From the NCBI GenBank assembly GCA_019454045.1, contig SKCR01035595.1, positions 17,147 to 81,146 on the forward strand: a DNA stretch of 64,000 bases, read 5' to 3'. Position 1 is the stretch's first letter. Each line of letters opens with the position of its first letter. The translations under genes were made by a program, and so were the position numbers. The stretch comes from Zanthoxylum bungeanum (taxonomy: Eukaryota; Streptophyta; Magnoliopsida; Sapindales; Rutaceae). Positions 11,765-64,000 of this stretch are shown here, piece after piece. The notes below the pieces were generated by a model. It was not told the origin of the DNA. It did not search any database and worked only from the letters and a program-made list of their open reading frames with translations.

Positions 11765-11765
11765 G

Positions 11766-26190: not shown

Positions 26191-26204
26191 AAGGTTAAGA
26201 TCTA

Positions 26205-27094: not shown

Positions 27095-27215
27095 TCGTTT
27101 GGTATATAAATCCATTAGGATGTGTATCAAGAATCCATTCCTTACTCAGCCATCACTAATGAATTAGCTCTCATATTTGTGATTGCCAAACACCATTCCT
27201 ATTTTCTTACTTTGC
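27095..27215 (-). pseudogene. Remnant of the cysteine-rich ORF in D
   Basis: Nucleotide similarity to 50524-50660 of E (phrases like TCCA..AGGATGTGTATCAAGA and CACCATTCCTA), at the right distance upstream of LOG. No ORF is left. The rest of the gene appears deleted. Confidence 0.5.
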
Positions 27216-27781: not shown

Positions 27782-27893
27782 ATGTGAAATACATGCTCCA
27801 TAAGTGTCAACTTGAGGATGGAAAGATGTATCTAATTTTAGGTCTTCATCCTCTGTGGTTGATATGACTGCTCAGGTAGCTCTTCTTCAAACA

Positions 27894-28660
27894 TCAGTGC
27901 AATGCATGCTCCAAGATCTTCATTTTTAGGATACAGAGTTTCATCCTTATTTGTAGTTGGTACAAATGGCTCTGGTTCTTGTTCCTCATCAGAGTTTGAT
28001 GAATAATAAAATCAAATCGAGATTTTGCTGGTTCGGGCTCCTGAATTGATACCTCTGGTTCTTGATATTGTTCAGCCTTTTTCTCTGATAATGCGTCATC
28101 GTGAAATGCTTGGTACTCGAAGGTTTCGTCAATGTCATTTGAATTTGTTCCGTGAGATATGTAATTCAGGTTGTTTGTTAATTGTCTAATTTGATTTATC
28201 ATCCTATGTATGGATGCTGCTTGACTATGAAATTGTGCATCAAATTGAGCTTCCCGTTCCTCGAGCCAATCTTTGAGCATGTCAATCATCCGATCTTCAT
28301 CTGATGGTTCTGGTTCTTGATGAAGATCGTAGATGGATGGTGGATAAGATGGAAAACGTGGTTAAGTGAAATATGATGGTTCTTCGAACTCTGAATGATT
28401 CTGATAATTCTGTCACCCTGAAAGGTATATGCATTGATTGCTCGGGTGGTTACCATCGTATATTTCACATCTCCCCATTGCGTTCTGTTGAGCAAATGTA
28501 GTATTGCTTGGTTCTGACATCCAGTGATAATTGGTGGGCTGGACAACAAGCATCAGAAAACCGGACTGTTGCTCCCTGATTTGGGGTGTATCTTCTTCTA
28601 GTAAAGCTCGTAATCTCTCAATCGCCCAATAATGTTCCATTTCAACCATCTGAAAAATAA
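27894..28660 (-). pseudogene. Gag remnant of D
   Basis: The frame 28649-28413 begins MVEMEHYWAIERLRALLEED and leads to a zinc-knuckle-like CEIYDGNHPSNQC, where the second Cys is Tyr. The capsid core between them is missing, which implies an internal deletion. The frame 28289-27894 has DWLEEREAQFDAQFHSQAAS and IRQLTNNLN, matching the C-terminal gag coil of E (52599-52400), then an acidic Pro/Glu-rich stretch. Confidence 0.7.
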
Positions 28661-28750: not shown

Positions 28751-28768
28751 TCCCCGGCAACGGCGCCA
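28751..28768 (-). other. Primer binding site of D, tRNA-Asp
   Basis: The minus strand reads TGGCGCCGTTGCCGGGGA, complementary to the 3' end of plant tRNA-Asp. It is identical to the E site and typical of Athila/Tat elements. Confidence 0.9.
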
Positions 28769-29608: not shown

Positions 29609-32162
29609 TGTTAGGATTTTATGGAGGAATATCGGTAACGCAGCGGAAACGCGGGTCGGGGCAGAAATCGTATTTCAAAAAAAAACTTTTTCAAAATACC
29701 GAGTAAATTATTCAATATCTAATATAAATAATCTATTCAGATTTCACCTAAACCCAAAAACATTACTCACATTCATGATCCGATCAGAAGAAGTAATAAT
29801 CTGACCACAAAAGGCCCATGGTCCGAGCACATGAAGCCATGGTCCGACCACATGAGGTCACGATCCAACCACATGAGGTCATTCCGACCACATGGGGTCA
29901 TGATCTGACCAAACTAGGTCCTACCAGACTAGAGACGACCATAAGAGGTCCGACCAAACTAGGGCCGACCAGACGAGGTCCGACCAGACGAGGTCCGACC
30001 AGACGAGATCCGACCAGACCAGGTCCGACCAGACTAGGGCCGACCAGACGAGATCCGACCAGACCAGGTCCGACCAGACTATGGCCGACCAGACGAGATC
30101 CGACCAGACCAGGTCCGACCGGACGTGGTCCGACCAGACCAGGGTCAACCCGACGAGTATTTTACATGCATCATATACACATCCAAATACACAACATAAA
30201 TGAAAAGCCCGAAGGTGGGAGAAGGTCTAAAAACTTAATTTATTAGACAAAATTAATTAAATCCAACACTTCAATCAAGTTTCTTAAACACAAAAAAAGC
30301 CTCACCACAATGAAATAACTATAGAACAATTCTAGGTCATTTAAGAGTGGGTCAATAACTCTAGAATGGCAACAAGTTTCTCAAAACATCAAAAGAATGC
30401 TTATAAACACATTATTACATTCTATGATCTTTATACATGCTCAACCTTATCCAAAACTTCCATCCTCCAAAAATACAAAGAATAAAGAATAGAAAAACAT
30501 AAGAACATCACAAGATGAAGCCCACAACAAGAGGAACATTTTTCTCTCTAATGGTAAGTTGGAAATACTTACTAGATTCCAAGCTTTTCTTTGTTTTTGC
30601 TTTTCTTTCTCTCAAGCTTCTTTGTCTTCCTTTTAATGGAGTTTTTGGATGAGATTTTGCTTAATGAAAATATCCAACACTTTTGCTATTTTCTAGCTTG
30701 GCCGAATTCAACAACAAGAGAAAATATTAATATTTTTCATTTTATTTCAATCAAGCCAACTTGGCCACTTGCTTTTGAAATCATTAACTCATTAATGAAT
30801 TTCTTAAAGTCAAGTATATCATCTTTATGTCATCTCAATGATTATCATAACTTTAATACATTTATATTTTAATTAAATTAATCATTTAATAATTAATTGA
30901 TTATTTAATTATTAAAATACAAATATATTAAATATATGTATTAAATTTACAATAAATATCAAATACATATATATTTATGATATAAATCAAATATCTCAAT
31001 TTGACAATTAATTAATGTGTATTTCATAAAATCTAACATTAAATGCAAATACACAAAAATTAGGAAATGACTATTAGGTCCCAACGCATGTATTTTCCGT
31101 TTAACCTTTAAACGACTTATAAATAATCAGTATTATTTATAAATGTTGCCCTAGTGCTCTACGAGTATATTTCATTAGAAAGACTCTCTAGATTCAGGTA
31201 CAAAATCCAATTTTCTGTCCATAATTTACCCACCCGTAAATTATGATGACCACAGATAAACTAGTTGAATCATACAGGTCGAGGTCATTGCATACGTATA
31301 ATCCCTCCGTCACAGGTATCCGGATAATCCTAGAGATATAGATGTAAACGTCAAATCTCTATAGGTATTATCCCGTCGACGTATCTATTAGCAATCTATA
31401 AATAACATTCGGAACTGATTCCGAAGTATACTATGGCCATAGATTTAACTGATTGCTAATCACATATGGACTACCTATGCTCTGTACACAGAACTGACGG
31501 ATCATATCTTGACACACACAAGATATCATGAGGATCGGTCCACACCCAACGAACAGGCGGAGGTCTGATCTAAATAGATCGGTGACGTGACTGCCATCTA
31601 AGTGTGGATGATGTCTCATACATCTACAGTGGTATCTCAAGTCGAATGACCACTATGCTACTCAACCCGAGAAGATTCTTATTGATGTTGGTGTACCATC
31701 CATTAAGAATCTTCGGTGAGTCGTTCAGTGTTTATCCACTATAAACACCTACACGTCTATACTAATCTCCCCAAACTCATGGTTCATTGGGATAAACATC
31801 GGACCAAGTCTCGATATACGACATGTACTGGTCTCAACCGGATTTGACTAACCGACCCGTGTTAGTGAATCTTGACCAGGAACTATATTTAAAAATATAC
31901 ATTTAGGAGTGACATTTCCCAATGTCAATTACAAACTACCGTTGTAACTGTGTACTGCATTATATATTATCGGGCATTTGTCTAATATATACATATCACT
32001 AAACAACATTTAGTCTCAATCTAATCGTAATCAGATCGAATACGTATATAAAAAAAAGAGGTGCAACCATAAATAAGTAATATTATGGAAAATTGGATGT
32101 TTATATTCATGAATCAGACATAAATACGGTCCGGATTGGCACTCTGAGCACCGACCCCAACA
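29609..32162 (-). repeat. Solo LTR of a B-related copia family
   Basis: Minus-oriented LTR: TGTTGGGGTCGGTGCTC at 32162 down to CCTAACA at 29609. It is flanked on both sides by the perfect 5-bp duplication CTTAC (29604-29608, 32163-32167). No internal sequence is present, so it arose by LTR-LTR recombination. It interrupts the gag region of A and contains the minisatellite at 29930-30150. Confidence 0.95.
29930..30150. repeat. 15-bp minisatellite with 45-bp higher-order unit
   Basis: Units of GACCAGACGAGGTCC and variants (GACCAGACCAGGTCC, GACCAGACTAGGGCC). Three variants in fixed order form a 45-bp unit repeated about three times. Looser units with GACCACATGAGGTCA precede it (29840-29930). 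Proline/threonine/arginine reading frames across it are artefacts. Confidence 0.9.
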
Positions 32163-32519: not shown

Positions 32520-33293
32520 ATTTTTTTAGAAAGTGATGATTTTTAAAGCATGATTTTGATGATTTTCTGGAGGTATGGGGGAAAAACTCACCTCAATTGT
32601 AACTTGGTACATATATTGGAATTGACGGTTACTGGAATTGACGGATTCAGAGCATCTGCATATATAGAGCATGACTAGGGGGACGACGATACATAACGCC
32701 CCTAGATCCTAGATTTCAGGGCTAGGGGGATGGCGAGACGTAACGCCCCTAGACTCTAGATTCAAAGTCGAGATGATAGCATTGATCCACATATTGGGCT
32801 CTAATTTAGTGACTTGGGGGATGGCGAGACGTAACACCCCAAGACCACTAGTTAGACGTATGAGGGGACGGCGAGACATAACGCCTTCATACATCAAGTC
32901 TTTCATAGACAGATTTTTAGAGATGAGATTTTCAGAGATATGGTTTTTCATAAACGATAAGTTTTATGAAAGAGTTTTCCAGAGGATTCAGTTTTATAGA
33001 TAGTAATTTAGAATTTTTCAGAAAGAAAAGTTTCCAGAAAGAGAACTGTTTTCATATAAGAAAGAATTTTCAAAAAGATCAGATTTCTTTGAGATGATTT
33101 TGATTTCAGTAAAATGAATGTTTCATAAAGTATTTCAGTTTTTCGTCTTTAAATTATCCACTCAAAGGTCGTTTAAAACGATCTAACCCATATACTCCCA
33201 GTTTTTCTATTTTGCAGGTTTACCCGGAGTACGAGCTCGGAAGGATGGATACTGATTGTAGTCACTAGGGTGTATGGATTTACCAGGTCGTAC
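32520..33293. other. Unassigned non-coding repeat DNA (left of H)
   Basis: No conserved ORF. It holds four hairpin-like units (32675-32892) and a GA-rich stretch (32890-33100). It resumes on the far side of H at 43025. It could be part of another LTR, but no LTR end is seen. Confidence 0.5.
32675..32892. repeat. Four stem-loop units with a conserved loop and changing stems
   Basis: Each unit has a 17-base centre (GAYGRCGAKACRTAACR) between complementary arms: CTAGGGG/CCCCTAG (32675-32681 with 32699-32705, and 32722-32728 with 32746-32752), CTTGGGG/CCCCAAG (32813-32819 with 32837-32843), and GTATGAGGG/CCTTCATAC (32858-32866 with 32884-32892, one G-T pair). Arms differ between units but stay complementary. 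Confidence 0.8.
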
Positions 33294-35209
33294 TGTAGGC
33301 ATTGCATTTTTACACATTAGCCCAATGATGAGTCTCGTATGGAGGCAACTACTTCTTTAGTCATGAAAGTCGCGGGAAACGGACGTTGGAAGGGTAAAGT
33401 TGGAAAATAGAATTTTCGATGGATTTAATCTCCTTGTTTTCCGCTTCGGTTGCTAGTTATACCTCCGTTTCTAAGCTCACCTTAGGCCCAAAACTCCCAT
33501 AGACCACATACCTAACCCAACCAAGCCCAAATACCCAAGTCAACCCAAGTCAAACCAAGTCAAACCAAATCCATGCCCAAAGGATGTAATTCACGCCCAA
33601 AGCCCATTTATTTAGGTACATGCATATTATCACATGTTTAAATCTTGTAAATCCTTACCTAAATAAAAGAAATCAAATCAAATCCCTACCAAATCAAATC
33701 CAATCCCAAATCCTAATTAGGAGATGCATTCCTTATTAGAAATCAATTAGGAGATTCCTTCCTAATCTAATAGGAAAGCCATCACCCTTTGCCTATAAAA
33801 AGAGGCCTTCACCCCCATTCACAACCCTAGCACACATACTTCCCTTGACGTCCCAAACACTTTCTCAAGCCTCCTTGCACCTCCAAAAACCTCCTTGAAG
33901 CCTCCATTGCCGAATCATAAACCTAAGCACCCTCCATTGCCGCATCTTTCATCCTTCACCAACACCCTTCACGCCTAAGCCCCTTTCACTACCCTCCATT
34001 GCCGAATTTTAGCCACCATTCACAGCCCTAAAACACACCAAAAATAAGCCTCAAATAAAGCCCTAAAGTCGCACTAAACACTCTCCAAACACAGCCCCAT
34101 TCGCAGCCCCAAAACAGTCCCCAAAAACGCCCCCACTGCACCTTGAACTGCCGCATCTTCACCTTATGTTCTGGTCCGTTTTGGCTGCGACTTTAGCCAG
34201 AAAACAGCCCTAAAATCACCTAGAACCATCCCAAAAACCTCCATAAAGTTTCCCTAAAAAATCCCCACAAACGCACCTCCCTAAGCCTTCAAAATCACCC
34301 AAAACAGTCCGCTAAACCATCAAGACAGTGACCTGAAACGTAGAAGCGAGCAGCAGCGAAACGGACTTGAAAAACAGCAGCCCGAGCAGCAAAACAGCGA
34401 GGAAAGATGTGGAGTTGGTGAACTAAAAGAGTAGCGGATCATTCACCCTTCCAACGGACGTGTAACGCCTTTTCTTAGACGACAAAAGAGGTTAGACCTG
34501 AGGGCACCTTTCTACTTATCTTCTTTATTGTTGTTTTATTTATTTTGATATATAATGGCATGAGAGTCGTTTGAAGCATGATGTGATTGTTGGGTGAGCG
34601 GGATATGTGTTCCCTTTTGTGGTATATCGGATGGAAACCCGGACGTAAATTCCATAGCCGATTCCGAATGGACGGTAGTATGGTCTGCACTCGGGATACA
34701 ATGCCACATACCACTTAAGATACACGTATCTCGTCTCATCCAAATTTGTATTTGAGCATGTTATAGTCTTTAGGTTATATGTTTATTATTTAAAGCATGG
34801 TTTAATTTAGTTTGTTATTTATTTGTTAAAGCATGTTTAGGTTGTCCATTATGCATGTTCTTAGTTTATGATGCGTTGGGTAATGATTTATACATGTGAT
34901 TCAATGGTTCAATATGCTTGTTGTGTTACATTGCGTGAAAATTATTTGGATGAAAGCATGTTAGATCTAAGTACCCTTGAGCATGATTATTGAGTAGACT
35001 TGGTTAGTTCATTGCACAATTATATCATCACAAGTGACATAAGTAAGGGACCATTCCGAACCCAACGGTTTGAGGTCTTCCCTTGCGAGGGGTGAGTGCG
35101 GCCTTAAATCTTTGTCCCGGTTCACACCGGGTGGCGACTCCATGTTATTTCATACTTCCCAACTAGGCCACGAGCCTAGAAAAGCGTCGCCCAGGTTCTG
35201 TTGTCTACA
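33294..35209 (+). repeat. 5' LTR of H
   Basis: 1916 bp, near-identical to 41112-43024 (1913 bp), differing by scattered single-base changes and small indels, which points to a fairly recent insertion. The plus-strand TATA box CCTATAAAAAGAGG is at 33792-33805. Downstream is C-rich, repetitive leader-like sequence (CCTCCATTGCCG recurs). Antisense ORFs near 34475-34743 occur identically in both LTRs and are not genes. Confidence 0.95.
33792..33805 (+). promoter_or_regulatory. TATA box in the 5' LTR of H
   Basis: CCTATAAAAAGAGG, a canonical plant TATA box 500 bp into the LTR, duplicated at 41603-41616 in the 3' LTR. Confidence 0.7.
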
Positions 35210-39904: not shown

Positions 39905-41000
39905 TTCAAATCAGTTTCAGCCAGGTACGGCACTCCGGGTATGGAGATATCAGATCAGCCAGGTACGACACTGCGGATATGGAGATATCAGTTCAGCCAG
40001 GTACGGCACTCGAGTATGGAGATATCAGTTCAGCCGGTACGGCACTCCGGGTATGGAGATATCAGATCAGTTCAGCCAGGTACGGCACTCCGGGCATGGA
40101 GATATCACAGCGGCGACACCCTAGGTACGGGGTTAGCATTCAGACATTTGTGGCACTCTAGGTACGGAGGCGTCACTGCGACACCCTAGGTACGGGGTTA
40201 GCACTCAGACATTTGTGGCTCTCTAGGTACGGAGGCGTCACACGCGACACCCTAGGTACGGGGTTAGCACTCAGAGATTTGTGGCACTCTAGGTACGGAG
40301 GCATCACTGCGACACCCTAGGTACGGGGTTAGCACTCAGACATTTGTGGCTCTCTAGGTACTGAGACGTCACTTCGACGCCCTAGGTACGGGGTTTAGCA
40401 TTCAGACCACAGCGACGCCCTAGGTACGGGGTTAGCACGCCAGGTACGACATGTGGACTATTCAGACATTTGTGGCTCTCTAGGTACGGAGACGTCACCG
40501 CCGCGACACCCTAGGTACGGGGTTAGCATTCAGACCACAAGCGACGCCCTAGGTATGGGGTTAGCACGCCAGGTACGGCATGTGGACTATTCAGACATTT
40601 GTGGCTCTCTAGGTACGGAGACGTCACTGCGACACCCTAGGTACGGGGTTAGCATTCAGACCACAGCGACGCCCTAGGTACGGGGTTAGCACGCCAGGTA
40701 CGGCATGTGGACTATTCAGACATTTGTGGCTCTCTAGGTACGGAGACGTCACCGCGACACCCTAGGTACGGGGTTAGCATTCAGACCACAGCGACACCCT
40801 AGGTACGGGGTTAGCACGCCAGGTACGGCATGTGGACTATTCAGACATTTGTGGCACTCTAGGTACGGAGGCGTCACTGCGACACCCTAGGTATGGGGTT
40901 AGCACTCAGACAACCAACATCATCATTGCGGTACTCTAGGTATGGAGACGCAACCGCGACGCCCTAGGTACGGGGTTTAGCATTATCAACTCAGCACAGC
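39905..41000. repeat. Nested tandem arrays in the 3' region of H
   Basis: Three array types share an AGGTACGG core. About five units of 38-42 bp (CCAGGTACGGCACTCCGGG, 39909-40110) are followed by units of about 65 bp (GCGACACCCTAGGTACGGGG plus CTCTCTAGGTACGGAG, 40107-40380). Then come four composite units of about 125 bp; the ATGTGGACTATTCAGAC phrase recurs near 40450, 40580, 40705 and 40830. Reading frames across them are by-products. Confidence 0.92.
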
Positions 41001-41097: not shown

Positions 41098-41111
41098 AAA
41101 GTGGGGGCGAC
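41098..41111 (+). other. Polypurine tract of H
   Basis: AAAGTGGGGGCGAC directly precedes the 3' LTR. Confidence 0.85.
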
Positions 41112-43024
41112 TGTAGGCATTGCATTTTTACACATTAGCCCAATGATGATTCTCGTATGGAGGCAACTACTTCTTTAGTCATGAAAGTCGCGGGAAACGG
41201 ACGTTGGAAGGGTAAAGTTGGAAAATAGAATTTTCGATGGATTTAATCTCGTTGTTTTCGCTTCGGTTGCTTGTTATACCTCCGTTTCTAAGCTCACCTT
41301 AGGCCCAAAACTCCCATAGACCACATACCTAACCCAAACCAAGCCCAAATACCCAAGTCAACCCAAGTCAAACCAAATCCATGCCCAAAGGATGTAATTC
41401 ACGCCCAAAGCCCATTTATTTAGGTACATGCATATTTATCACATGTTTAAATCTTGTAAATCCTTACCTAAATAAAAGAAATCAAATCAAATCCCTACCA
41501 AATCAAATCCAATCCCAAATCCTAATTAGGAGATGCATTCCTTATTAGAAATCAATTAGGAGATTCCTTCCTAATCTAATTAGGAAAGCCATCACCCCTT
41601 TGCCTATAAAAAGAGGCCTTCACCCCCATTCACAACCCTAGCACACATACTTCCCCTTGCACGTCCCAAACACTTTCTCAAGCCTCCTTGCACGTCCAAA
41701 AACCTCCTTGAAGCCTCCATTGCCGAATCATTAAACCTAAGCACCCTCCATTGCCGCATCTTTCATCCTTCACCAACACCCTTCACGCCTAAGCCCCTTT
41801 CACTACCCTCCATTGCCGAATTTTAGCCACCATTCACAGCCCTAAAACACACCAAAATAAGCCTCAAATAAAGCCCTAAATTCGCACTAAACACTCTCCA
41901 AACACAGCCCCATTCGCAGCCCCAAAACAGTCCCCAAAAACGCCCCCACTGCACCTTGAACTGCCGCATCTTCACCTTATGTTCTGGTCCGTTTTGGCTG
42001 CGACTTTAGCCAGAAAAACAGCCCTAAAAGCACCTAGAAAACCATCCCAAAAACCTCCATAAAGTTTCCCTAAAAAATCCCCACAAACGCACCTCCCTAA
42101 GCCTTCAAAATCACCCAAAACAGTCCGCTAAACCATCAAGACAGTGACCTGAAACGTAGCAGCGAAGCAGCAGCGAAACGGACTTGAAACAGCAGCCCGA
42201 GCAGCAAAACAGCGAGGAAAGACGTGGAGTTGGTGAACTAAAAGAGTAGCGGATCATTCACCCTTCCAACGGACGTGTAACGCCCTTTCTTAGACGACAA
42301 AAGAGGTTAGACCTGAGGGCACCTTTCTACTTATCTTCTTTATTGTTGTTTTATTTTTTTGATATATAATGGCATGAGAGTCGTTTGAAGCATGATGTGA
42401 TTGTTGGGTGAGCGGGATATGTGTTCCCTTTTGTGGTATATCGGATGGAAACCCGGACGTAAATTCCATAGCCGATTCCGAATGGACGGTAGTATGGTCT
42501 GCACTCGGGATACAATGCCACGTACCACTTAAGATACACGTATCTCGTCTCATCCAAATTTGTATTTGAGCATGTTATAGTCTTAGGTTATATGTTTATT
42601 ATTTAAAGCATGGTTTAATTTAGTTTGTTATTTATTTGTTAAAGCATGTTTAGGTTGTCCATTATGCATGTTCTTAGTTTATGATGCGTTTGGGTAATGA
42701 TTTATACATGTGATTCAATGGTTCAATATGCTTGTTGTGTTACATTGCGTGAAAATTATTTGGATGAAAGCATGTTAGATCTAAGTACCCTTGAGCATGA
42801 TTATTGAGTAGACTTGGTTAGTTCATTGCACAAATTATATCATCACAAGTGACATAAGTAAGGGACCATTCTGAACCCAACGGTTTGAGGTCTTCCCTTG
42901 CGAGGGGTGAGTGCGGCCTTAAATCTTTGTCCCGGTTCACACCGGGTGGCGACTCCATGTTATTTCATACTTCCCAACTAGGCCACGAGCCTAGAAAAGC
43001 GTCGCCCAGGTTCTGTTGTCTACA
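41112..43024 (+). repeat. 3' LTR of H
   Basis: 1913 bp, matching the 5' LTR. Ends GTCTACA, followed by AGTAC, the probable target duplication. Confidence 0.95.
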
Positions 43025-46370: not shown

Positions 46371-47139
46371 TGACCGGCGTAAACACACACGTATAACGCA
46401 AGCGCACGTATCGTCAAGTAGTATAAAAATATCGATCCCACGAGGACTTAATATCTAAACTATTAATTTTATGAGGTCAAATGATTACTAGTATCTAACA
46501 GATTGTTTGATTGATTGATTTGAAATGGTGACGATTCTAAATTTAAAAGCAAGTAAATAAAATTGTCGAAAATATGTTTTAAGAAAATTCAATATTAAAA
46601 ACTATCTAGGGTTGTGATTTCTTCCAATATCATTTTAAAGATGAAGTGGTTATCTTAGTTGGGTAACATATTGATTTATTAACCTGGAACACTAAATTAT
46701 GTGTAAGCCTCTGTCGATGGTCAGACACAAATACCCAGTTTAACCCAATTGAACCATATGTCTATGTCAACCAAATTATCTGGATTCATTAAGTTTAAGT
46801 CCAATTATGGCTACCCCCGCCCGACAGGTATATTATCCTATCCTGTAAGGAAATCTATTAAAGGGTTATCTATCCTCAAGGAAGATCGTGGGCTATTGAG
46901 TCTAAGGCTGAAACCTAAAATCCCTATGTCTAGTTCATTTTAGATTTACCAGATCAGTTTTATTAATGGCCAGTTAATGAAAAAGCATTAAGTTTAAGAC
47001 TCAATAAATAAATCTTTATATTACCCAAGCTATAATCTAACCCTTTATAACCGGTGATATTGGATTTCATCACAACCCCAGATAACTGGCTTAGTTACGA
47101 CACATATTTACAGGTGGTAAAAAAACTTAAATAAAATAA

Positions 47140-47440
47140 AAGACATAAAGTAAAATACTGAAAATGAAATACTGAAAAGTAAATGCTAAAAGTAAATACT
47201 GAATTAAATACTGAAAATTAAATGCTGAAAGTAAATTACTGAAAGTAAATTGCTGAAGTAAATTACTGAAAGTAAATTGCTGAAAAGTAAATTGCTGAAA
47301 GTAAATTACTGAAAAGTAAAAACTGAAAATTAAAGAAAGAAAAGTATTGTGCGTAAAAGTAAATTGCGGAAGTAAAAACTGAAAAGTAAAGAAAAGAAAA
47401 TGCGAAAGCGAAATTAATTACTGAAAGCTGTAAATAAACA
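47140..47440. repeat. 15-16 bp tandem repeats in LTR E
   Basis: Repeated AGTAAATTGCTGAA / AGTAAATTACTGAA units, also at 54675-54960 in the other LTR with a different unit count. They lie downstream of the TATA box, in the transcribed part. Confidence 0.85.
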
Positions 47441-47515
47441 AACAAGATACAATCTTCTTAGTATTCTTAAGGAATTCCTTAGAAGAAAGTATGAATTTTA
47501 CAAATGAAATGGCTT

Positions 47516-47527
47516 GGTATTTATAGG
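47516..47527 (-). promoter_or_regulatory. LTR promoter TATA box, element E
   Basis: The minus strand reads CCTATAAATACC. Duplicated at 55037-55048 in the 5' LTR, where it would drive the element. Confidence 0.7.
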
Positions 47528-48147
47528 CAAAATTTTGCCACCATCAAATCATCAATCATTTCTCCACCAATTACATTATTAATTTCTCCACTAATTACTC
47601 CACCAAATCCATAATTGCTCCAATAATTTCTTATCTTGTTTGGTGTTGATTTGATAATTTTTATATTAATTTTAATTAATTAATATTTTGCTTTGAAAAT
47701 GATTGATAATGACTTTTAATAATTACACTCCACACACTTCTGGATGGTTCATCAATTTCGGTCATGAAATCTTCAGAATTCGAAAATATTTTCTCTTTCA
47801 AAGTTGTAGATCTTTGAGTCTTCTTTAATCTGGCACTTGAATCAGCTCAATCCGATATCTGAGTAAAACGTTATGCCCAACATACGACAGATGTGCAAAA
47901 CTGGAATTTCCAAAACTGCACTTCGTCAAAACGCCCTTTCAAATTTCCAATCTCCAAAATTAATATATCAAGTCCAATAATTGCCCTTATTTGATCCACA
48001 TTTCGTCCTAAATGATTTCATTGAGTCCCGATATTATTTTATCTGCAAAATAAAATAAAACATATCAAAACGTTCATCAAACCCGAGAAACTAAACAAAA
48101 TATTAAGTAAAAGGGGCGGTAAATATTGATATATTTTCCGCTCATCA

Positions 48148-49382
48148 CACCCCCAAACCTAAGATTTTGCTAGTCCTCGAGCAAAACAACAAAATAAAAT
48201 TAAAATTAAACTAAGCCACTTTCGTAGGGATCACGGTTGCATTTAGCATATGCAACAAGCCTTTAAACCCCTAGGTGTCCCTAGTGGACGAGTTGTAGTC
48301 TCGTGAGGGTTTACAGCAATGATACCCACAAACATTTTACAAAAGTAAAAAGGTATTAAAACTAATGCACACAAAAGCAAAAAGACAAGCGAAAAGAGAA
48401 TAAAGAAATTTAGTGACTAATCAGGTAAAACTTTACTCCAAGTTACTAGTTGTTTTGTTTCATTCTAAATTACCGAATAAGTAAATTCTCCGATTATTTT
48501 TACCATTCTTCATATACACAGCCAACATAATATTAAACAACTCATTTTTGCCCACAACAGTCATAAGTGCAGTTGATAAGAGAGTAATATTTTTGTCCTA
48601 AAGTTCTATCAGATTCACACCTTTTTGTAGCAATGGAATAATTTTTCTGATTTTTCTGATTTTTTCTTTGATTTTCTCTATTTTTTATTTATATACAATA
48701 TCTTCCATCTATGTAGCGAGCTTTGGGTCGGTGGCTCCCAAACCAGTTGGTTTTAGGGCACCAGGTGTTAAGACACCCCCTACGGACTTAATTACCCAGA
48801 CTTCAGATATAAATATATTTTTGCAGCATCTTTGATCCATGTAGCGAGTGTTGGGCCAGTGACTCCCAAACCAGTTGGCTTTAGGGCACTAGGTGTTAAA
48901 ACACCCTTACAGACTAATAACCGGATCTTAGATACTTTATTTTTGTAAATTTTTTTTTTTTTTTTTTTTTTTTTTACTCCCCATTGCTTTTTGAGATGCT
49001 TCCTCCAATTAAACTAGAGCACTGAATATTACAAACTTTTCAATTTAGCTCATGTCTGTATGTTACTATTATGTTGATAATATCTGTCAACTGAGCATAT
49101 GAAGATCCATTTTAGTCCGTTTTAAGGAGAATTCACAAATTAAATAATTCAAAATGAAATAAACAAAAATTAACTTGTTTCGAAATAGGTTGAGATACGT
49201 CTCAGGAGTGGAAACTCCTTACTCAGCTATCTCTTACCAATTTCACCTTTTTAGTCAAATTAAAAACACAAAAAAAAACACAAAATATTTTTGTAATTTT
49301 TGAAAATTTTTCAATTTTTTTGTATTTTTCGAAAAATTTAGGACTAAAAATAAAAACAACATACAAACTAAAAACAAGGTAC
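48148..49382 (-). repeat. 3' non-coding region of E
   Basis: No gene. Contains the polypurine tract (48163-48148, TTAGGTTTGGGGGTG), the conserved block 48226-48336 (shared with D), the duplicated block 48710-48920 (shared with A and D), a poly-T run of about 26 at 48950-48975, and AT-rich sequence. Confidence 0.85.
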
Positions 49383-49440
49383 TAATCAACTAATTTCCTC
49401 CCCCAAACCTAAATGAGACATTGTCCCCAATGTCTTAAAC
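49383..49440 (-). promoter_or_regulatory. Internal purine-rich block of E
   Basis: The minus strand has GGGGACAATGTCTC and then TTTAGGTTTGGGGGAGG, just after the LOG gene. It resembles a second polypurine tract; the same block follows LOG in A and D. Confidence 0.65.
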
Positions 49441-49512
49441 AGTAAAAGGAGAGTTAAGAAGGTCGTACCTGGTTAGCTGAAATCTACAGGAAATTAAAGG
49501 TTAAGATCCAGA

Positions 49513-50142
49513 TTAACGACGCCTCTTACCACGATCGTCCTCGGACCAATTTATCTTTGAAAGGATAGGGTCAACTGTGGTTCATAGCTATGAGTTGGTC
49601 TATTAGATCCGGAGCAGTTCTGGCAGTAAAGAGGAGTTCTTTCATAGGTTTTGACACGAACCCATTTCTCCGAGCATCATCAAGAAACACACAAAGAAAA
49701 TCATAAAATCCATCAACGTTAAGCAATCCAAGTGGTTTCTGGTGTATGTTCAGGTTGCCCAAGATAGAACTATAAAAATTTCCTCCAATGTACCCAAACC
49801 ACCTGGCAAAGCAATAAAAGCATCAGCACGATTAATCATTTCTACCAGGCGTTCAGACATACCTGGCACGATCAGTTCCTCTCCGTTTGATGACCCAATA
49901 AGATTTGCCTCTGCCAAGGGTTTTGGGATGATTCCCAAAACATGACTGCCTCCTTCTTGTACGGCCTTTGAAACGATCCCCATTAATCCAAGATTGCCTC
50001 CGCCATATATTAAGTGCATATTCCTTGCAGCTAAGACTCGACCCAATTCCTGTGCTGCTTCTATGTATTGTGGTTTAGTACCAACACTACTACCGCAAAA
50101 CACACAAATGTTTTCAACTCGTCTTCTTGAAGTGGCTTCCAT
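49513..50142 (-). pseudogene. LOG-like cytokinin riboside phosphoribohydrolase captured by E
   Basis: ATG at 50142. The frame runs 130 residues: RRRVENICVFCGSSVGTKP, LIYGGGNLGLMGIVSKAVQ, VLGIIPKPLAEANLIG, PGMSERLVEMINRADAFIAL, then PGGLGTLEE, the LOG/lysine-decarboxylase-like signature. One missing A in TGGGCAACCTG (about 49761) shifts to the second frame with NLNIHQKPLGLLNVDGFYDF and KELLFTARTAPDLIDQL. A second one-base loss near 49573 precedes a tail ending KRRR at 49513. Total length (about 208 codons) fits plant LOG proteins, 200-230. Catalytic Arg and Glu positions are kept. No introns. Known LOG enzymes convert cytokinin nucleotides to active bases in the cytosol; this copy would need two frame corrections, unless these are assembly errors. 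Confidence 0.92.
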
Positions 50143-50402: not shown

Positions 50403-50891
50403 CTATGCGTCAGGGACAAGCTTCCCATCCAATTTTCTTATAAATTGGCAAACAGGGTCTTTTTGAGTCAGATTCCCGAGACTTAACTGTTGTCTTTCTT
50501 TTTGAAATTGTGTATGTAATTTGCGAATGGTTATATGAACATATCCACTGGGATGCGTCTCAAGAGTCGAAGATATATCATCTAAAGACTCCTTACTCAA
50601 GCCATCCCTAATGAAGTTAATTTTGTCTTCGCGATTATCAGACACCATTCCTAAAGAACGACAACGAGTGTTGCAATTAAATCGTGCACATTTGAAACAA
50701 ACACCCATTTGCTTAGCTCTACGTTTCTTTGCATAGGTGCTTCTTCCAAAACCAGGCAGATGTGAAATAAAAGAATCAGAAGACTCACCTGCCAATCGGA
50801 CTCGTGCTTCAATTACCCAACGAATATCATTAGGAATACCATGGATTGTTAATAACCTCATCCGTTCCAAGCGAGCTTTGTATACTTTCAT
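50403..50891 (-). CDS. Cysteine-rich basic accessory protein of E, 162 residues
   Basis: An intact ORF from ATG 50891; an in-frame stop near 50958 limits any extension, and codons just upstream also align with A. Features in order: basic N-terminus (KARLERMRLL), IPNDIRWVIEARV, then GRSTYAKKRRAK (basic patch, residues 49-60), a C-x2-C-x4-C-x3-C cluster (CFKCARFNCNTRC, about residues 65-77), DKINFIRDGL, and a polar C-terminal half (FQKERQQL). A basic GRS.YA..RRA stretch directly before a Cys cluster recalls the cysteine-rich nucleic-acid-binding proteins of carlavirus-type plant viruses (Pfam Carla_C4). That is resemblance by eye only. It could equally be a retroelement-specific RNA-binding protein. 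It is the only undamaged accessory ORF here. Confidence 0.7.
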   Translation of the reverse strand: MKVYKARLERMRLLTIHGIPNDIRWVIEARVRLAGESSDSFISHLPGFGRSTYAKKRRAKQMGVCFKCARFNCNTRCRSLGMVSDNREDKINFIRDGLSKESLDDISSTLETHPSGYVHITIRKLHTQFQKERQQLSLGNLTQKDPVCQFIRKLDGKLVPDA

Positions 50892-51088
50892 CAGAGATTT
50901 TGGAGGGAGAGAAGGAAATTGCTTGTGAAGATTTGCGAAGCTTCTTCCATCTTGAAATGACTAAACCTGCAAAAATAAAACACACAAAATTAAATCACAC
51001 CAAATCACAATATATACAAAAATTGCATGGGTTGCCTCCCTGCTAGCGCTAAGTTTAAAGTCGTCAGCCAGACATGACTTCTCGAACG

Positions 51089-51290
51089 TTAAGCTGGATC
51101 TGAAAGTGTAACACTTTCTTTTTGTCGCTCAAATGATTCTCCCCAGTAGTGCTTGACACGCTTGTTTTTAACCTTGAAAGTTTTGTTAGCGTCAGAATCA
51201 TGTATCTCAACGGCTCTATTTGGTAAAACTTTGGTGATCACAAATGGACCTGACCACCGTGATTTTGGCTTCCATGGGAAGATTTTCACC
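51089..51290 (-). pseudogene. Integrase C-terminal tail of E
   Basis: Frame with KIFPWKPKSRWSGPFVITKV, AVEIHDSDAN and VKHYWGE, the GPF/Y module that ends gypsy integrases. It follows the 51286-52164 frame after a one-base shift at KVLLNNQG. Confidence 0.88.
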
Positions 51291-52240
51291 CTTGATTGTT
51301 TAACAGTACCTTCTGCCCTGGTTCCAGTTGTATGCGCACTAACTTCTCATCATGTCTTTTCTTGCCCTTTTCTTTGTACAATTTGGCATCTTCAAAAGGC
51401 TGATTGTGAAATTCCTCCAATTCGTTGAGCTGGTGGAACTTTTTCTCTTCTGTTGCTTGTAGAGCAAGAATTGGCTCTTTCAGTGCAAAAGATGCTTTAT
51501 CTTTAGGCTCCACAGGCAATTGACATGTTTTAAGTTTGTCAGTAGAACTTTGTCTTTTATCAGAGTTCTGAATGGTACTGTGTATCACATCGAGTTTGAA
51601 ACATTCCTCATTCTTTTCATCATCTGGAAAATTCATGGCCTTGAAAACATTGAATGTTACTTCTTGGTCCTGTACCCTCATGGTTAGTTCTCCTTTTTGT
51701 ACATCAATAATGGTTCGACCTGTAGCCAAGAACGGTCTCCCGAGGATGATTGGCACGTCTGCGTCTTCCTCCATATCAAGGACAATAAAATCTGCTGGGA
51801 AAATGAATTTGTCAACCTTGACCAGCACATCCTCAACTACGCCTCTTGGAAATACGAGCGTTCTATCAGCAAGTTGCAGTGAGACTGAAGTTGGCATTGT
51901 TTCTCCAATCTGTAATTTCCTGAAAATAGAAAAAGGCATCAAGTTAACACTAGCACCTAAATCACATAAAGCCTTACCAAAGTTATGTTCTCCTATGACG
52001 CAAGGAACAGTGAAACTGCCAGGATCTTTCAACTTTGGGGGAAGTTTCCTCTGAATGATAGCACTGCATTCTTCTGTTAATGCTACTGTCTCGTAATCCC
52101 CCAATCTCCGCTTTCGTGAAAGAATATCTTTCATGAATTTGGCATAGGTGGGCATTTGTTCCAACGCTTCTGCAAATGGAATGTTGATATGCAGCTTTTT
52201 GAAGATCTCCAGAAACCGGAAAATTGCTTGTCCAATTTAT
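51286..52240 (-). pseudogene. Protease joined in frame to integrase C-terminus, E
   Basis: A 292-residue frame. It begins with YAKFMKDILSRKRRLGDYE, then the retropepsin: KALCDLGASVNLMPFSIF (active site DLGAS), LQLADRTLVFPRGVVEDVLV, FIVLDMEEDADVPIILGRPF. About residue 195 it passes into a linker and then ELEEFHNQPFEDAKLYKEK, RQLEPGQKVLL-type sequence of the integrase C-terminal region. RT, RNase H and the integrase catalytic core (about 700-800 residues in relatives) are missing with the frame kept. Confidence 0.9.
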
Positions 52241-53790
52241 TCTTCTGAAGACGTTGAGGAGGTGGAGGTGGAGTGATCTGTTCTTTTTCCTTTGCTTCTT
52301 TTTCTTCCATTTGTTGCTTTATTTCTTTGGAACTTCTTCTCCTCAGCAGTTGAATTGACTCCAACATCTTTGTTGATTTCAGTACCGCTCTTTAACATGA
52401 TGGCATGACATTGTTCCTTCCCCATGTTTCTTGGATTTGGCTCTGTGTTGCTGGGAAGGGTACCTGGCGGTCTGTAACTCTGAGCATTTGCCAGTTGTCC
52501 CATTTGATTCTCTAGTGCTTTAATAGAAGCAGATTGACTTTGAATTAATGCCGCTTGAGATTGAAATATAGCATCATACTTTTTTAACTGAGTCAGCACT
52601 TCTGTTATGCCTGGTTCATTTGTCTGCTCCTGGCTTTTGTTCTGCTGTTGGAATTCAGGTGGTGGATAGTTCTGCTGTTGAAATCCTGGTGGTGGATTGT
52701 TCCTTTGTCCAATTGTTGCTCCATGAAAAATTGGGATGATTCCTCCACCCTGGGTTGTAGGTGTTGGAATATGGATTGTTTCCCTTGTCTGTTAAATTGT
52801 TGACATAATTCACCGTTTCTTCAGTTTGAGTTGGCTCTGGTGCTCCTCCATATGTTGAACTTGTTGCTCCAATATTGCTTTGAGTGTTGAGAGTCTCCAT
52901 GAATTTGCATATCTGGTCCAGTTTGGCACTAACTGCTGTGTTGGCTCCAACTTCATAAATTCCTGCAATTCTTTGAATCAAGCTCCTTTCTGTTGGCCAC
53001 AAGGAATTGTTATTGGCCATCTCTTCGATTAGGTCCCAGGCTTGATCTTCTCCTTTTGACATCAAAGCTCCTCCAGCAGCAGCATCAATAGTGGTTCTCA
53101 TCAATCCAGAAAGTCCATTATAGAAAGTTTGGACTTGAAGCCATTTTGGAATCTCATGGTGAGGACATTTCCGGAGCAGATCTTTGTATCTTTCCCCCAA
53201 GCTTCGTACATGGATTCTGAATCTTGCTGCACAAAGGATGTGATGATGTCATTTCTCAGTTTTGCTGTTCTGGCTGGTGGAAAGTACTTTGCAAGGAATT
53301 TGGTGGCTAGGGTGTTCCATGTTGTGATGGAACCTGCTGGTAGTGAATGTAGCCAGGCCTTTGCTCTGTCTTTCAAAGAGTATGGAAAAACCCGCAATCT
53401 CATTGCTTCTTCAGCTCCTCGGTTGTAATTGAAAGTGCCGCAAACTTCCAGGAAGTTGCTGATGTGGGCGTTAGGATCTTCAGTTGCATTCCCTCCAAAT
53501 TGAACTGACTGCTGAATCATCTGAATGCATGTTTTGATGTCACACGCATTTGCTGGTAAGGGAGGAAGTACAATACATGAAATGAGTCTGTCAACCATCG
53601 GAATGGTTCTGTCTCGAATGGGAATTGGTGGTGCAACGATCAAAGGTTCAGGTTCCATGTTGACTAAAGCTTCTTGGCCTTCTCGCCTTTCTCTTCTCAA
53701 CTGTCTGATGGTTCTTTCAATTTCTAGGTCAAGTGGTCGGAGTTCAAAGCTTCTGGTTCGTCTCATGAAGTGTCTAAGAACCTGTAACAC
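52237..53790 (-). pseudogene. Gag of E
   Basis: Starts at about 53790 (RRTRSFELRPLDLEIERTIRQ). The capsid-type gag domain has AHISNFLEVCGTF, DRAKAWLHSLPAGSITTW and LATKFLAKYFPPARTAK. A missing G near 53190 shifts to 53200-52655 (ERYKDLLRKCPHHEIPKW, FYNGLSGLMRTTIDAAAGG, then Asn-rich sequence). A further shift leads to 52599-52237 with a coil (FQSQAALIQSQSASIKAL) and AIMLKSGTEI. No CCHC knuckle is recognisable. Confidence 0.9.
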
Positions 53791-53874
53791 AAGAAAACAG
53801 AAATAATAAGTAAAAAGAAATTAGATACAAGTAAAGGTATCTAACCCCTAAACTAATAGTAAAAGATAACTAAG

Positions 53875-53892
53875 TCCCCGGCAACGGCGCCA
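53875..53892 (-). other. Primer binding site of E, tRNA-Asp
   Basis: The minus strand reads TGGCGCCGTTGCCGGGGA, six bases inside the 5' LTR end; identical to D. Confidence 0.92.
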
Positions 53893-53898
53893 AAAACT

Positions 53899-55676
53899 TG
53901 ACCGGCGTAAACACACACGTATAACGCAAGCGCACGTATCGTTCAAGTAGTATAAAAATATCGATCCCACGAGGACTTAATATCTAAACTATTAATTTTA
54001 TGAGGTCAAATGATTACTAGTATCTAACAGATTTTTGATTGATTGATTTGAAATGGTGACGATTCTAAATTTAAAAGCAAGTAAATAAAATTGTCGAAAA
54101 TAGGTTTTAAGAAAATCAATATTAAAAACTATCTAGGGTTGTGATTTCTTCCAATATCATTTTAAAGATGAAGTGGTTATCTTAAGTTGGGTAATATATT
54201 GATTTATTAACCTGGAACACTAAATTATGTGTAAGCCTCTGTCGATGGTCAGACACAAATACCCAGTTTAACCCAATTGAACCATATGTCTATGTCAACC
54301 AAATTATCTGGATTCATTAAGTTTAAGTTCCAATTATGGCTACCCCCGCCCGACAGGTATATTCCTATCCTGTAAGGAAATCTATTAAAGGGTTATCTAT
54401 CCTCAAGGAAGATCGTGGGCTATTGAGTCTAAGGCTGAAACCTAAAATCCCTATGTCTAGTTCATTTTAGATTTACCAGATCAATTTTATTAATGGCCAG
54501 TTAATGAAAAAGCATTAAGTTTAAGACTCAATAAATAAATCTTTATATTACCCAAGCTATAATCTAACCCTTTATAACCGGTGATATTGGATTTCATCAC
54601 AACCCCAGATAACTGGCTTAGTTACGACACATATTTACAGTAGTAAAAAAACTTAAATAAAATAAAAGACATAAAGTAAAATACTGAAAATTAAATACTG
54701 AAAAGTAAATGCTAAAAGTAAATGCTGAAATTAATACTGAAAATTAAATGCTGAAAGTAAATTACTGAAAGTAAATTGCTAAAGTAAATTACTGAAGTAA
54801 ATTGCTGAAAGTAAATTGCTGAAAGTATTACTGAAAATAAAAACTGAAAATTAAGAAAGAAAAGTACTGTGCGTAAAAGTAAATTGCGGAAGTAAAAACT
54901 GAAAAGTAAAGAAAAGAAAGTGCGAAAACGAAAATTAATTACTGAAAGCTGTAAATAAACAAACAAGATACAATCTTCTTAGTATTCTTAAGGAATTCCT
55001 TAGAAGAAAGTATGAATTTTACAAATGAAATGGCTTGGTATTTATAGGCAAAATTTTGCCACCATCAAATCATCAATCAATTTCTCCACCAATTACATTA
55101 TTAATTTCTCCACTAATTCTCCACTAATTACTCCACCAAATCCATAATTGCTCCACTAATTTCTTATCTTGTTTGGTGTGATTTGATAATTTTTATTAAT
55201 TATTAATTAATTAATATTTTGCTTTGAAAATGATTGATAATGACTTTTAATAATTACACTCCACACACTTCTGGATGGTTCATCAATTTCGGTCATGAAA
55301 TCTCAGAATTCGAAAATATTTTCTCTTTCAAAGTTGTAGATCTTTGAGTCTTCTTTAATCTGGAACTTGAATCAGCTCAATCCGATATCTGAGTAAAAAG
55401 TTATGCCCAAATACGACAGATGCGCAAAACTGGAATTTCCAAAACTGCACTTCGTCAAAACGCCCTTTCAAGTTTCCAATCTCCAAAATTAATATATCAA
55501 GTCCAATAATTGCCCTTATTTGATCCACATTTCATCCTAAATGATTTCATTGAGTCCCGATATTATTTTATCTGCAAAATAAAATAAAACATATCAAAAC
55601 GTTCATCAAACCCGAGAAACTAAACAAAATATTAAGTAAAAGGGGCGGTAAATATTGATATATTTTCCGCTCATCA
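53899..55676 (-). repeat. 5' LTR of E
   Basis: 1778 bp; TATA box at 55037-55048 on the minus strand; 15-bp repeats at 54675-54960. Ends TCATCA before the resumed copia C reading. Confidence 0.97.
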
Positions 55677-60835: not shown

Positions 60836-61890
60836 GTTCGTCTAAGATACTTAAGGATGTTCTTTACAGCAATCCAGTAACCATCACCTGGATCGGCCTG
60901 ATAGCGACTGCACATGCTCAAAGCATATGAGACATCAGGTTGCGTACATATCATGGTGTACATGATCGATCCGACTACTGAAGCATATGGGATCTGAGTC
61001 ATTGCATCTCTCTCATCTTGAGTTATAGGACACATATCCTTTGAAAGAGAGACGTCATGTGACACCGAAGCAGCCCCATCTTGGACTGATCCATGTTGAA
61101 TCTCTTCAACACTTTGTCAATGTACTAGTTCTGAGAGAGTGCCAGCAGCTTCCTAGATCTATCCCGGTAGATTCTTATTCCTAGAATAAAGGCTGCCTCT
61201 CACAGGTCTTTCATGGAGAATTTTAATTAAAGCCAAGCTTTCACCGATTGTAGCATGTGAATGTCATTGCCAAGAAGCAATACATCATCAACATATAGGA
61301 TAATGAATGTCAGTGTGCTCCCACTAACCTTCTTATATACACAAGAATCATCTTTATTTTGAATGAAACCATATTTTTTTATGATCTCATCAAAACGTTG
61401 GTTCCAAGAACGCTATGCTTGCTTTAAAGCATAGATGGATCGGTTTAACTTACAAACCTTGTTTGCATGTTTTGGCACGACAAAACCATCAGGTGTTGCA
61501 TATAAACATCCTCCAAAAGGTTTTCGTTAAGGAAAATGATTTTGACATCCATCTGCCATATTTCATAATCGAAATATGCAGCAATAACAAGTATTATCCG
61601 AATGGATTTAATCATGGAAACAGGTGAAAAGGTTTTGTCGTAATCGAAACCATATTGTCGACGATACCCTTTAGCTATAAGCCTAGCTTTGTACGTTTGT
61701 ATGTTTCCATCCATGTCTATCTTCCTTTTGAAGATCCATTTACAACCAATAGGCTTAATGTCTTCTGGTACATCAACCAGTGTCAAAACTTGGTTGGTAT
61801 ACATGGAATCCATTTCGGACTTTATGGCTTCTTGCCATAAAGCGGAGTCGATACCTTGTATCGCTTCCTCATACGTAGTCAGTTCATCTT
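60805..61890 (-). pseudogene. Reverse transcriptase of I
   Basis: WQEAIKSEMDSMYTNQVLTL near 61840 opens RT. WIFKRKIDMDGNIQTYKARL and YEIWQMDVKIIFLN give the first catalytic Asp (61560). A stop at 61445 follows. Then GLKQA-like (ALKQA), LYVDDVLLLGND with an intact YVDD (61283-61294), and PYASVVGSIMYTMICTQPDV in 61065-60805. Confidence 0.92.
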
Positions 61891-63090
61891 CCTCAATAAG
61901 ATTAATGTCTACATGAGGTGAGATCAGAAACCCATACCTCTTAGGTTGTTTTTTTACTCTCTCCGACTTATGCGGTTCTTGTGTATTAGGAGATTGTGGA
62001 ACAGTCTCATCTTTGATGGTCTGTTCATGTTCCGTGAGGGGGTCGGTGTCAGGAACAGTTTCACTCTGATTTTCATCGAGTTCTACTTTCCTCCCACTTA
62101 CCACTGCATTCATGAATTCCTTTTCGAGGAAAACTACATGAAGAGCAACAAATATTTTGTTCTCTTATGGATTGTGAAAATAATATCCTTTCATTTCCTT
62201 AGGATAGCCTAAAATAGGCACTTATCCGATTTGGGTTCTAGTTTGGTACTATCCAAACGTTTAACATATGCTCCAGCATCCCCAAACCTTCAGGAATGAG
62301 AAACCCGGTTTCTTTCCTGTCCATATTTTATATGGAGTTTATTCAACAGACTTTGAAGGAACCTTATTCAAAATAAGTATTGCACTGTATAATGCGTATC
62401 CCCATAAGTAAATTGGTAGCTCTGTGCGACTCATCATTGACCTTACCATGTCCAATAAAGTTCGTTTCTCTGTTCGGACACACCGTTCAATTGAGGTGTT
62501 TCGGGAGGAGTCCACTGTGAAAGAATACCATATTCTTTCAAGTAATCTTGAAAGTCATTCCTTAAGTATTCTCCACCATAGTCCGACCGTAATATTTTAA
62601 TACTTTTGCTAGTCTGTTTTTCTACTTCGTGTCGAAACACTTTGAATTTCTCAAAAATTTCCGACTTGTGTTTCATAAGATACACATAACCATAACAAAA
62701 TGCATCATCCGTAAAGGTTACGAAGTATTCATATCCACCTCTAGCCTGGCTATACATGGGCCCGCATACGTCACTATGAACGAGGGCTAACATCTCGGTG
62801 GCACATACACATTTACCACTAAAATGTGTTTTAGGCATTTTGCCTAACAAACAAGATTCGCAGACATCATATGAATTATGATCAAATCCGTCCAAGTATC
62901 CATTCTTCGAAAGTGTGGATATATGAGTTCTTTTAATGTGTCCTAGAAGACAATGCCACAAATAAGTCTCATATATTTTACTCAATTTGAGCTTTTTATT
63001 TGTCATGTTATATGTTTGAGATTCGTTTATATTCAAAATATAAAGACCATTATTCACATCTGTTGTACATATCTCAATATCATCTTTATA
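61890..63090 (-). pseudogene. Integrase of I and linker to RT
   Basis: YLWHCLLGHIKRTHISTL and CESCLLGKMPKTHF form the HHCC domain. The core has VHSDVCGPM, FVTFTDDAFCYGYVYLM and ILRSDYGGEYLRNDF, with TPQLNGVSEQRN for the last Glu. The frame breaks at about 62443; a VWGC-type C-terminus follows in broken frames. The linker (62113 onward) is acidic and ends in SERVKKQPKR. Confidence 0.92.
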
Positions 63091-63470
63091 AACAAAACAT
63101 CCAGTGTTCCTTAATACAAAGGTATACCCGCATCGGGTTAAACTAGATACAGAGATAATATTCCTAGTCAAACTAGGTACAAAATAACAGTCGCCTAATG
63201 TAAGTACATGTCCTGATGGCAGACTCAAAACATAGGTGCCAACAACCAAAATAGTGACTTTCATCCCATTTCTGAATCGGAGGTCGATCTCCCATGAAGC
63301 CAGTCTCCTACTATTATGCAGATCCTGCACATCAGTATATATGTGAGTACCACATCTAGAATCAAAAATCCAATTTTTAAAACTAGTAGTGGACATGTTT
63401 ATTTCAATAACAAACATACATGAAGCCAGAGCCTTGCCCGCCTTCGCCTCCTTCAAGTCCACCTGGAACA
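63090..63470 (-). pseudogene. Protease of I
   Basis: FKNWIFDSRCGTHIYTDVQD near 63370 is the copia protease start; the catalytic D-[ST]-G reads DSR, one substitution that should abolish activity. LRFRNGMKVTILVVGTYVLS and CYFVPSLTRNIISVSSL follow. It shares one open frame with integrase (63471-62443). Confidence 0.88.
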
Positions 63471-64000
63471 TACGGCAGTCACGCTTCCAATGACCCCGTT
63501 TGCCACAGTATAGGCAGAAATATTGGGATTTGTCCTTTGTCTTCCCAGAAGATTATGACGATTGAGCCGTGCCCTTCTTTTTCTTCTTCTTCACACCCCC
63601 AGAAGCCTTCGGCTAAGCCTTGGGCTTCTTGGATGTCAAAGTAAGATATGCCTCGTGCTTCTTGCCTTTTTGAAGCTCTGGCTCCGCCTCTTTCAGCATA
63701 GCCATTAACTCTCCAAGAGTTTTCTCTTGATTCATCATATTATAGTTCATGACAAACCCGCCCCAGCAGTTGGGCAGAGACTGTAAGATCAAATCTATGG
63801 AAGTCTTGGCCTCGAAGGTAATGTCGAGTTGACCCAGCTGTTCGATGTCAGCAATCATCTATGACACGTAGTGTTCGACAGATGTACCCTCTGACATACG
63901 AGAGCGAAAGAGCTTCTTCGGCAAATCATACTTCTGAGATATAAGATTAGATCTATGAAGATCCTTCAATTTCAACATCATCGCATAAGGATCCAATCCC
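63471..64000 (-). pseudogene. Gag of I, partial at the window edge
   Basis: LKLKDLHRSNLISQKYDLPK, then a stop near 63860 and IADIEQLGQLDITFEAKTSI, ILQSLPNCWGGFVMNYNMM (UBN2-type gag). A Lys-rich stretch precedes an intact CCHC knuckle (CLYCGKRGHWKRDC, near 63500). The N-terminus lies outside the window. Confidence 0.9.

Follow-up and report, generated by a model that had tools for sequence, protein, structure and literature searches.

The window, a stretch of 64,000 nucleotides of Zanthoxylum bungeanum whose positions are numbered from its first letter, is plant-like DNA packed with nested LTR elements, and three Ty3/gypsy copies within it (A, D and E) each contain a gene derived from the LOG family. 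All three genes are located on the minus strand, which is also the strand of gag and pol, and are positioned downstream of pol. The gene of E (49494-50142) comprises 217 codons and a stop, with frame changes near residues 129, 186-191 and 210, and its first 130 residues match the Pfam Lysine_decarbox family (PF03641, 3e-21). In D (26188-26841) the match spans 137 residues at 2.6e-33, and the frame is interrupted by a stop at residue 25 and by frame changes near residues 39 and 181. The gene of A (2674-3324), delineated by tblastn and a codon map, has four frame changes and two stops. All three copies are pseudogenes. Previously, a sequence-only reading of this DNA had described a LOG-like gene in three gypsy copies, and its presence is confirmed at all three places; the interval assigned to E, 49513-50142, is correct at the start of the gene, but the gene extends to a stop codon at 49494. 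Codon positions were defined by mapping each copy to P0002, a full-length relative of 217 amino acids that can be traced by ungapped tblastn through 217 codons of A, 216 of D and 213 of E. No intron-sized gap is present in any of the three maps, in agreement with the earlier reading. The best solved structure for the window LOG by sequence is Arabidopsis At2g37210 (PDB 2a33, 8.1e-40). When E and D are compared, nucleotide identity is 0.80-0.89 per 100 bases within the LOG gene, which aligns with few gaps, and 0.75-0.98 in the flanks, such that identity within the gene does not exceed that of its surroundings.

Element E, which lies on the minus strand throughout, is bounded by a 5' LTR at 53899-55676 and a 3' LTR at 46371-48147, identified by self-BLAST, each of which starts with TGATGAGC and ends with CCGGTCA. 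A probable primer-binding site, an 18-mer found by pattern matching (53875-53892), adjoins the edge of the 5' LTR, and is followed by a stop-to-stop open reading frame encoding gag (53104-53820; Retrotrans_gag 2.7e-12 on 53101-53790). Further downstream, a protease-like ORF (51289-52236; Asp_protease_2 at 0.0036, below the Pfam cutoff) runs into a stretch resembling the end of integrase, and the integrase C-terminal end itself is detected at 51092-51346 using the corresponding piece of A as a tblastn query (2.3e-9). The protease-like ORF thus passes into the integrase end with no reverse transcriptase, RNase H or integrase core between them, and neither Pfam nor the pieces of A used as queries detected these domains in E. 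The earlier reading had placed LOG between pol and the purine block that precedes the 3' LTR. LOG is indeed downstream of pol; however, the purine block just downstream of it (49400-49408, with the same block in D at 26086-26094 and no exact match in A) is a different tract from the one that adjoins the 3' LTR (48150-48158, by pattern match). The two LTRs of E differ by a K2P distance of only 0.012 over 1762 sites, which indicates that E is a young insertion; a 5-bp target-site duplication was looked for at E and not found. Judged by its sequence, E looks non-autonomous. The combination of a broken LOG, a missing reverse transcriptase and young LTRs suggests that E did not require LOG in cis and owed its movement to factors acting in trans, although the frame changes in its LOG could also postdate insertion.

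Copy A is split by a copia element (4656-14193) whose LTR-like repeats (4656-7057 and 11782-14193) are separated by ~7.1 kb, and which encodes gag (7824-8486) and RVT_2 (10664-11170) on the plus strand. Beyond this nested element lie minus-strand pieces assigned to the reverse transcriptase (16059-16319; RVT_1 4.9e-9), RNase H (15500-15694; RT_RNaseH_2 1.6e-17) and integrase core (14541-15056; rve 6.6e-13) of A, spanning 14541-16319, whereas the integrase C-terminal end, a zinc-finger ORF and LOG occupy 2674-4605. The integrase end (4396-4605, minus strand) is an ORF with no Pfam match of its own, a piece of which matches E at 51152-51283. We infer that the two halves form one element, because their strand, their order and the nested insertion fit. 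The 3' region of copy D aligns with that of E over 2387 columns at 80.9% identity, and D contains the same primer-site 18-mer at 28751-28768, but its middle differs; the reverse transcriptase, RNase H and integrase-core pieces of A gave no match in D, and the middle of D (27503-28361, minus strand) holds two ORFs of 123 and 155 amino acids with no Pfam match. An LTR-element-type gag in E and the reverse transcriptase, RNase H and integrase in A identify the copies as Ty3/gypsy. The shared 18-mer resembles, we presume, tRNA-Asp, and a primer-binding site of the tRNA-Asp type is a trait linked with the Athila lineage. Together with the appearance of gag and pol and the extra 3' ORFs, this makes Athila the most likely assignment. 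The presence of LOG in register in three insertions of one gypsy lineage, a central point of the earlier reading, is supported by these data. Other parts of the window also contain repeats: copia pol pieces (RVT_2, gag_pre-integrs and rve) are present at 61445-63471 on the minus strand, direct repeats of 1.9 kb that are 97.9% identical and 7.8 kb apart (33292-35209 and 41110-43024) are perhaps the LTRs of another element and enclose a short-repeat family at 40113-40942, and a tandem array with a 15-base unit is located at 29859-30188. Rfam and tRNA scans of the whole window returned no match.

Pol and LOG are separated by another conserved ORF, which the earlier reading had not mentioned. In E this minus-strand ORF (50406-50960) follows the pol end, precedes LOG and matches the Pfam families Viral_NABP (6.3e-7) and Carla_C4 (1.6e-6), both above the gathering score; it is open from approximately residue 6 of its relatives to the end, and the start of the relatives lies in a different frame. 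Its counterpart in A (3655-4200, minus strand) has three stops and is 67% identical to the relative P0121 over 181 residues. The order pol end, zinc-finger ORF, LOG is therefore the same in A and E, and at this place in D there is a relic (27072-27214, minus strand) recognized by tblastn with P0121, which yields two adjoining segments (E=0.002), whereas P0129 as query recovers only one of them (E=0.59). Homologues are numerous, as 248 of the 285 database proteins taken as candidates score at E<=0.001, and they are uniform in length, with 92 of the 120 listed relatives measuring 178-190 amino acids and 65 exactly 182. Their named hosts (Populus, Acer, Xanthoceras, Orobanche and Rhamnella) are all dicots. 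Among 61 aligned members, 50 match Viral_NABP and 49 match Carla_C4 at E<=0.001, and C88, C91, C96 and C100 are nearly invariant, forming a CX2CX4CX3C arrangement that follows a basic stretch. A carlavirus-type CX2CX12CX4C finger, a spacing cited from one virus, was not found in the ORF. We therefore describe the encoded protein as NABP-like, a term that its Pfam matches would justify short of membership among the true NABPs. The A-E comparison yields a dN/dS of 0.39 (bootstrap 0.24-0.60). The structure model of the protein (mean pLDDT 64.6, pTM 0.32) is too low in confidence for a fold search, and a search of the PDB by sequence gave no convincing match (best E 1.6).

To describe the LOG protein we turned to its relatives. 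The AlphaFold model of P0002, which is a relative and not a window copy, has a mean pLDDT of 88.2 and matches 2a33 best (TMt 0.96, rmsd 1.0), showing that it adopts the LOG fold. We take the PGGxGTxxE motif and the active-site arginine to have the roles ascribed to them in LOG enzymes. Both of these features of type-I LOGs, the cytokinin nucleotide phosphoribohydrolases, are found in E and D, where the codon map bears out the earlier report of an intact PGGLGT and of the arginine in SER, whereas A retains the arginine and has PCRLGT in place of PGGLGT. The final glutamate of PGGxGTxxE is present in 116 of 119 relatives and the arginine in 108, the remainder having glutamine (10) or histidine (1). 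Seven of the glutamine proteins (P0008, P0010, P0013, P0014, P0016, P0018 and P0043) belong to one clade of eight, in which only P0021 has the arginine; the others are P0112, which is outside the tree, P0027 and P0120, and the histidine is in P0118. The loss of the arginine in 11 of 119 relatives, including seven of the eight in one clade, implies that, in some of these proteins, selection may preserve something other than catalysis.

A second feature distinguishes these proteins from host LOGs. An LxLxL sequence occurs within the last 12 residues of 75 of 97 full-length relatives, as compared to 0 of 114 full-length host LOGs (LxLxL anywhere in the protein is found in 6 of 121 host rows), and in 73 of the 75 tailed relatives it is preceded by a basic pair; the strict motif is missing in 22 of the 97. 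In the window, D ends in INLDLNL, E reads VNLDLNL across a frame change, and A ends in RRMDLNLNM, with DLNLNM at the position of the tail. LxLxL represents the EAR class of corepressor-binding motif. A match to this pattern is no proof by itself of TOPLESS binding, and we refer to it as an EAR-like tail. It could be that the enzyme role was lost or changed and that the protein acts as a nuclear regulator, its basic and LxLxL tail recruiting a TOPLESS-type corepressor with the LOG fold as a scaffold. The frequency of the tail favors this idea, as does the replacement of the arginine in 11 of 119 relatives, three of which (P0027, P0118 and P0120) have the tail. We nonetheless regard it as quite improbable, as most rows retain both the arginine and PGGxGTxxE, five of the seven arginine-less rows in the clade described above end in LDIDLNR and have no strict LxLxL, and the tail is of low confidence in the P0002 model.

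The relatives were obtained by scoring the 7999 candidates that share most words with the query, and the best 120 of 7775 matches were listed. Full-length relatives of up to 90% identity exist, and 62 of the 120 listed are exactly 217 amino acids long. A tree of 148 rows was built from 104 of these 120 relatives (185-260 amino acids), 40 of the 120 canonical hits that were listed, the genes of E and D, and two bacterial sequences; A was too broken to include. E, D and their relatives form one clade of 105 rows (support 98/95), which is sister to a group containing the 40 canonical rows and Papaver P0119. The earlier reading had expected a single clade nested within the host LOGs. The single clade is recovered; however, it is sister to the sampled host sequences, which are of the LOG1/3/8 type as they derive from a LOG3/LOG8 query, and the donor group may lie outside this sample. 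Element context is established directly for A, D and E only. It extends indirectly to P0008 and P0010, whose leaders resemble the stretch immediately preceding LOG in all three window copies at E-values of 3.7e-6 to 0.003, and to two pairs of proteins that suggest shared contigs. The pairs emerged when LOG and zinc-finger hits were compared by the size of their source contigs (97 and 111 distinct sizes, contigs >1 Mb left out): six sizes are common to both, of which four (905, 1018, 1022 and 1161) may coincide by chance, and the other two join P0071 with P0149 (8723) and P0105 with P0141 (4511). Relatives with DNA context were not found in viral contigs (queries P0121, P0001 and alignment A2). 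Element-borne status is thus shown for part of the LOG clade only, and the clade might instead consist of a tailed group of host LOG paralogues together with captures from it, perhaps repeated, by elements. Consistent with this idea, the element context is confined to the members just named, and eight tail-less rows lie at the base of the LOG clade. We consider it improbable, as there are several loci per named species (e.g. five Reevesia and three Paulownia names) and the host LOG1/3/8 sequences group apart in a separate clade (100/95). Populus proteins named LOGL10 fall in the LOG clade and may belong to elements, which calls for caution among annotators.

Pairwise dN/dS values of the LOG genes (Nei-Gojobori) are 0.24 for A-D, 0.20 for A-E and 0.26 for D-E (bootstrap 2.5-97.5% for D-E: 0.17-0.43), at dS values of 0.43-1.34. 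These ratios are well below 1, an outcome that the earlier reading had named, for internal branches, as a sign of selection on the protein, and by this measure the codons of A, D and E show past purifying selection; pairwise values do not reveal on which branches selection acted, and they include decay after insertion. Values computed from a gapped alignment (LOG A-D 0.31, A-E 0.29, D-E 0.48; zinc-finger A-E 0.39) were rejected, because the frame of E was wrong. The LOG could still be a mere passenger that was captured once and copied with the element to no benefit, the low dN/dS predating capture. All window copies are broken, including that of the young E, and seven of eight rows of one clade have lost the arginine, as would be expected of a passenger. 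Against it, A, D and E apparently diverged as elements, given their dS, yet their dN/dS is 0.20-0.26; moreover, a length of exactly 217 amino acids is kept by 62 of 120 listed relatives over a deep clade, and the tail found in 75 of 97 relatives occurs in none of the 114 host LOGs. On balance we think it rather unlikely that LOG is only carried along.

We favor, with moderate confidence, the explanation that LOG was captured and then kept behind pol beside the zinc-finger gene, with cytokinin-related and nuclear roles, and that E is a passenger. A dicot gypsy lineage, most likely Athila, would long ago have acquired LOG from a spliced transcript and retained it downstream of pol as an additional gene, next to a second such gene for a zinc-finger protein resembling the viral NABPs. 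In working elements the LOG protein would be made along with the element and would convert cytokinin nucleotides locally to active cytokinin, its tail might add a nuclear and possibly TOPLESS-binding role, and the function of the zinc-finger protein might be nucleic-acid binding or a weakening of silencing. Cells that divide, or that are less able to silence, would favor the element and its inheritance. E would be a young, defective passenger that was moved by the proteins of other copies. The gene's identity, position and lack of introns, its clade and its past selection, the LOG fold of a full-length relative and the basic LxLxL tail common in the clade are established by our data; the activity of LOG, its location in the cell and its benefit to the element are what we infer from sequence. 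The observation made in the earlier reading is thus confirmed and its interpretation partly supported, while the suggestion that cytokinin activation benefits the element is still speculation. Counting against the favored explanation, the window LOGs are broken, E moved recently despite a broken LOG and a missing pol core, some relatives lack the arginine or the strict LxLxL as described above, and the nucleotide identity of E and D within LOG does not exceed that of the flanks.

The pairing of LOG with a zinc-finger neighbor may be a sign that the element acts on its host cell through the two genes together. In the boldest form of this idea, they would constitute a host-manipulation cassette of a widespread dicot retrotransposon lineage, in which an NABP-like protein that suppresses silencing or controls transcription and a LOG enzyme refitted with a nuclear tail that recruits a corepressor produce cytokinin-rich, division-prone and less silenced cells, a possibility that we put forward tentatively and consider doubtful. 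If true, the cell state driven by the cassette would favor the element. To our knowledge, few of the extra genes found in plant LTR elements have been assigned a role. LOG, a hormone enzyme whose chemistry is known, here appears to be kept by selection and has both a tail that belongs to an established motif class and a neighbor resembling a viral gene, and enzyme, binding and silencing assays on the natural full-length relatives could test what such genes do for elements.

Comparison with known systems separates what is familiar from what is new. The host LOG enzymes (At2g37210 and At5g11950; PDB 2a33 and 1ydh) share the fold, the arginine and the PGGxGTxxE motif with the proteins described here. 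They differ in two respects: host LOGs have PGGYGT in 121 of 121 cases, whereas leucine, phenylalanine or isoleucine replaces the tyrosine in 117 of 119 members of the element-related clade, and host LOGs lack the C-terminal tail. Two Athila-like elements reportedly described by Steinbauerova et al. (2011) have LOGL4-like extra ORFs in their 3' region and would resemble the copies in the window in this respect. The capture of LOG by gypsy elements is already in print and is not new. Gypsy LTR-element consensuses from Citrus sinensis and C. clementina contain a YgdH (LOG family) domain, as does Populus trichocarpa Gypsy when a filter is omitted, and the accessible portion of that study presents the finding as agreeing with that of Steinbauerova et al. 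(PMC9289625). These consensuses thus resemble our copies in having a LOG domain inside a Ty3/gypsy element, but the same portion of the account mentions neither selection nor a tail or zinc-finger neighbor of the kind described here (PMC9289625). The available parts of two papers on extra ORFs (PMC11963269, PMC7264820) contain nothing relevant on LOG, cytokinin or lysine decarboxylase, and the open-access literature searched, which misses most subscription papers and was judged in part by title, yielded no report of the LOG tail or of the zinc-finger neighbor. A single LOG clade with an LxLxL tail and a zinc-finger ORF upstream of LOG were accordingly not found in print. The closest parallel to the zinc-finger protein is the cysteine-rich NABP of carlaviruses, which likewise has a basic stretch followed by a four-cysteine finger, and whose Pfam families the ORF matches above the gathering score. 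According to the part of a study on jasmine virus C available to us, carlavirus NABPs are silencing suppressors with a basic stretch and CX2CX12CX4C, and in one virus the NABP is associated with an increase in a host factor and with the proliferation of cells (PMC8839810). The viral protein is of 11 kDa (PMC8839810), whereas the ORF described here encodes ~182 amino acids with a CX2CX4CX3C finger. Finally, Gypsy elements of Phalaenopsis encode a different enzyme, an AlkB m6A demethylase whose activity, according to the accessible text, was shown (PMC9289625), whereas LOG is here known from sequence; in both cases a host-like enzyme gene has become fixed in a gypsy lineage.
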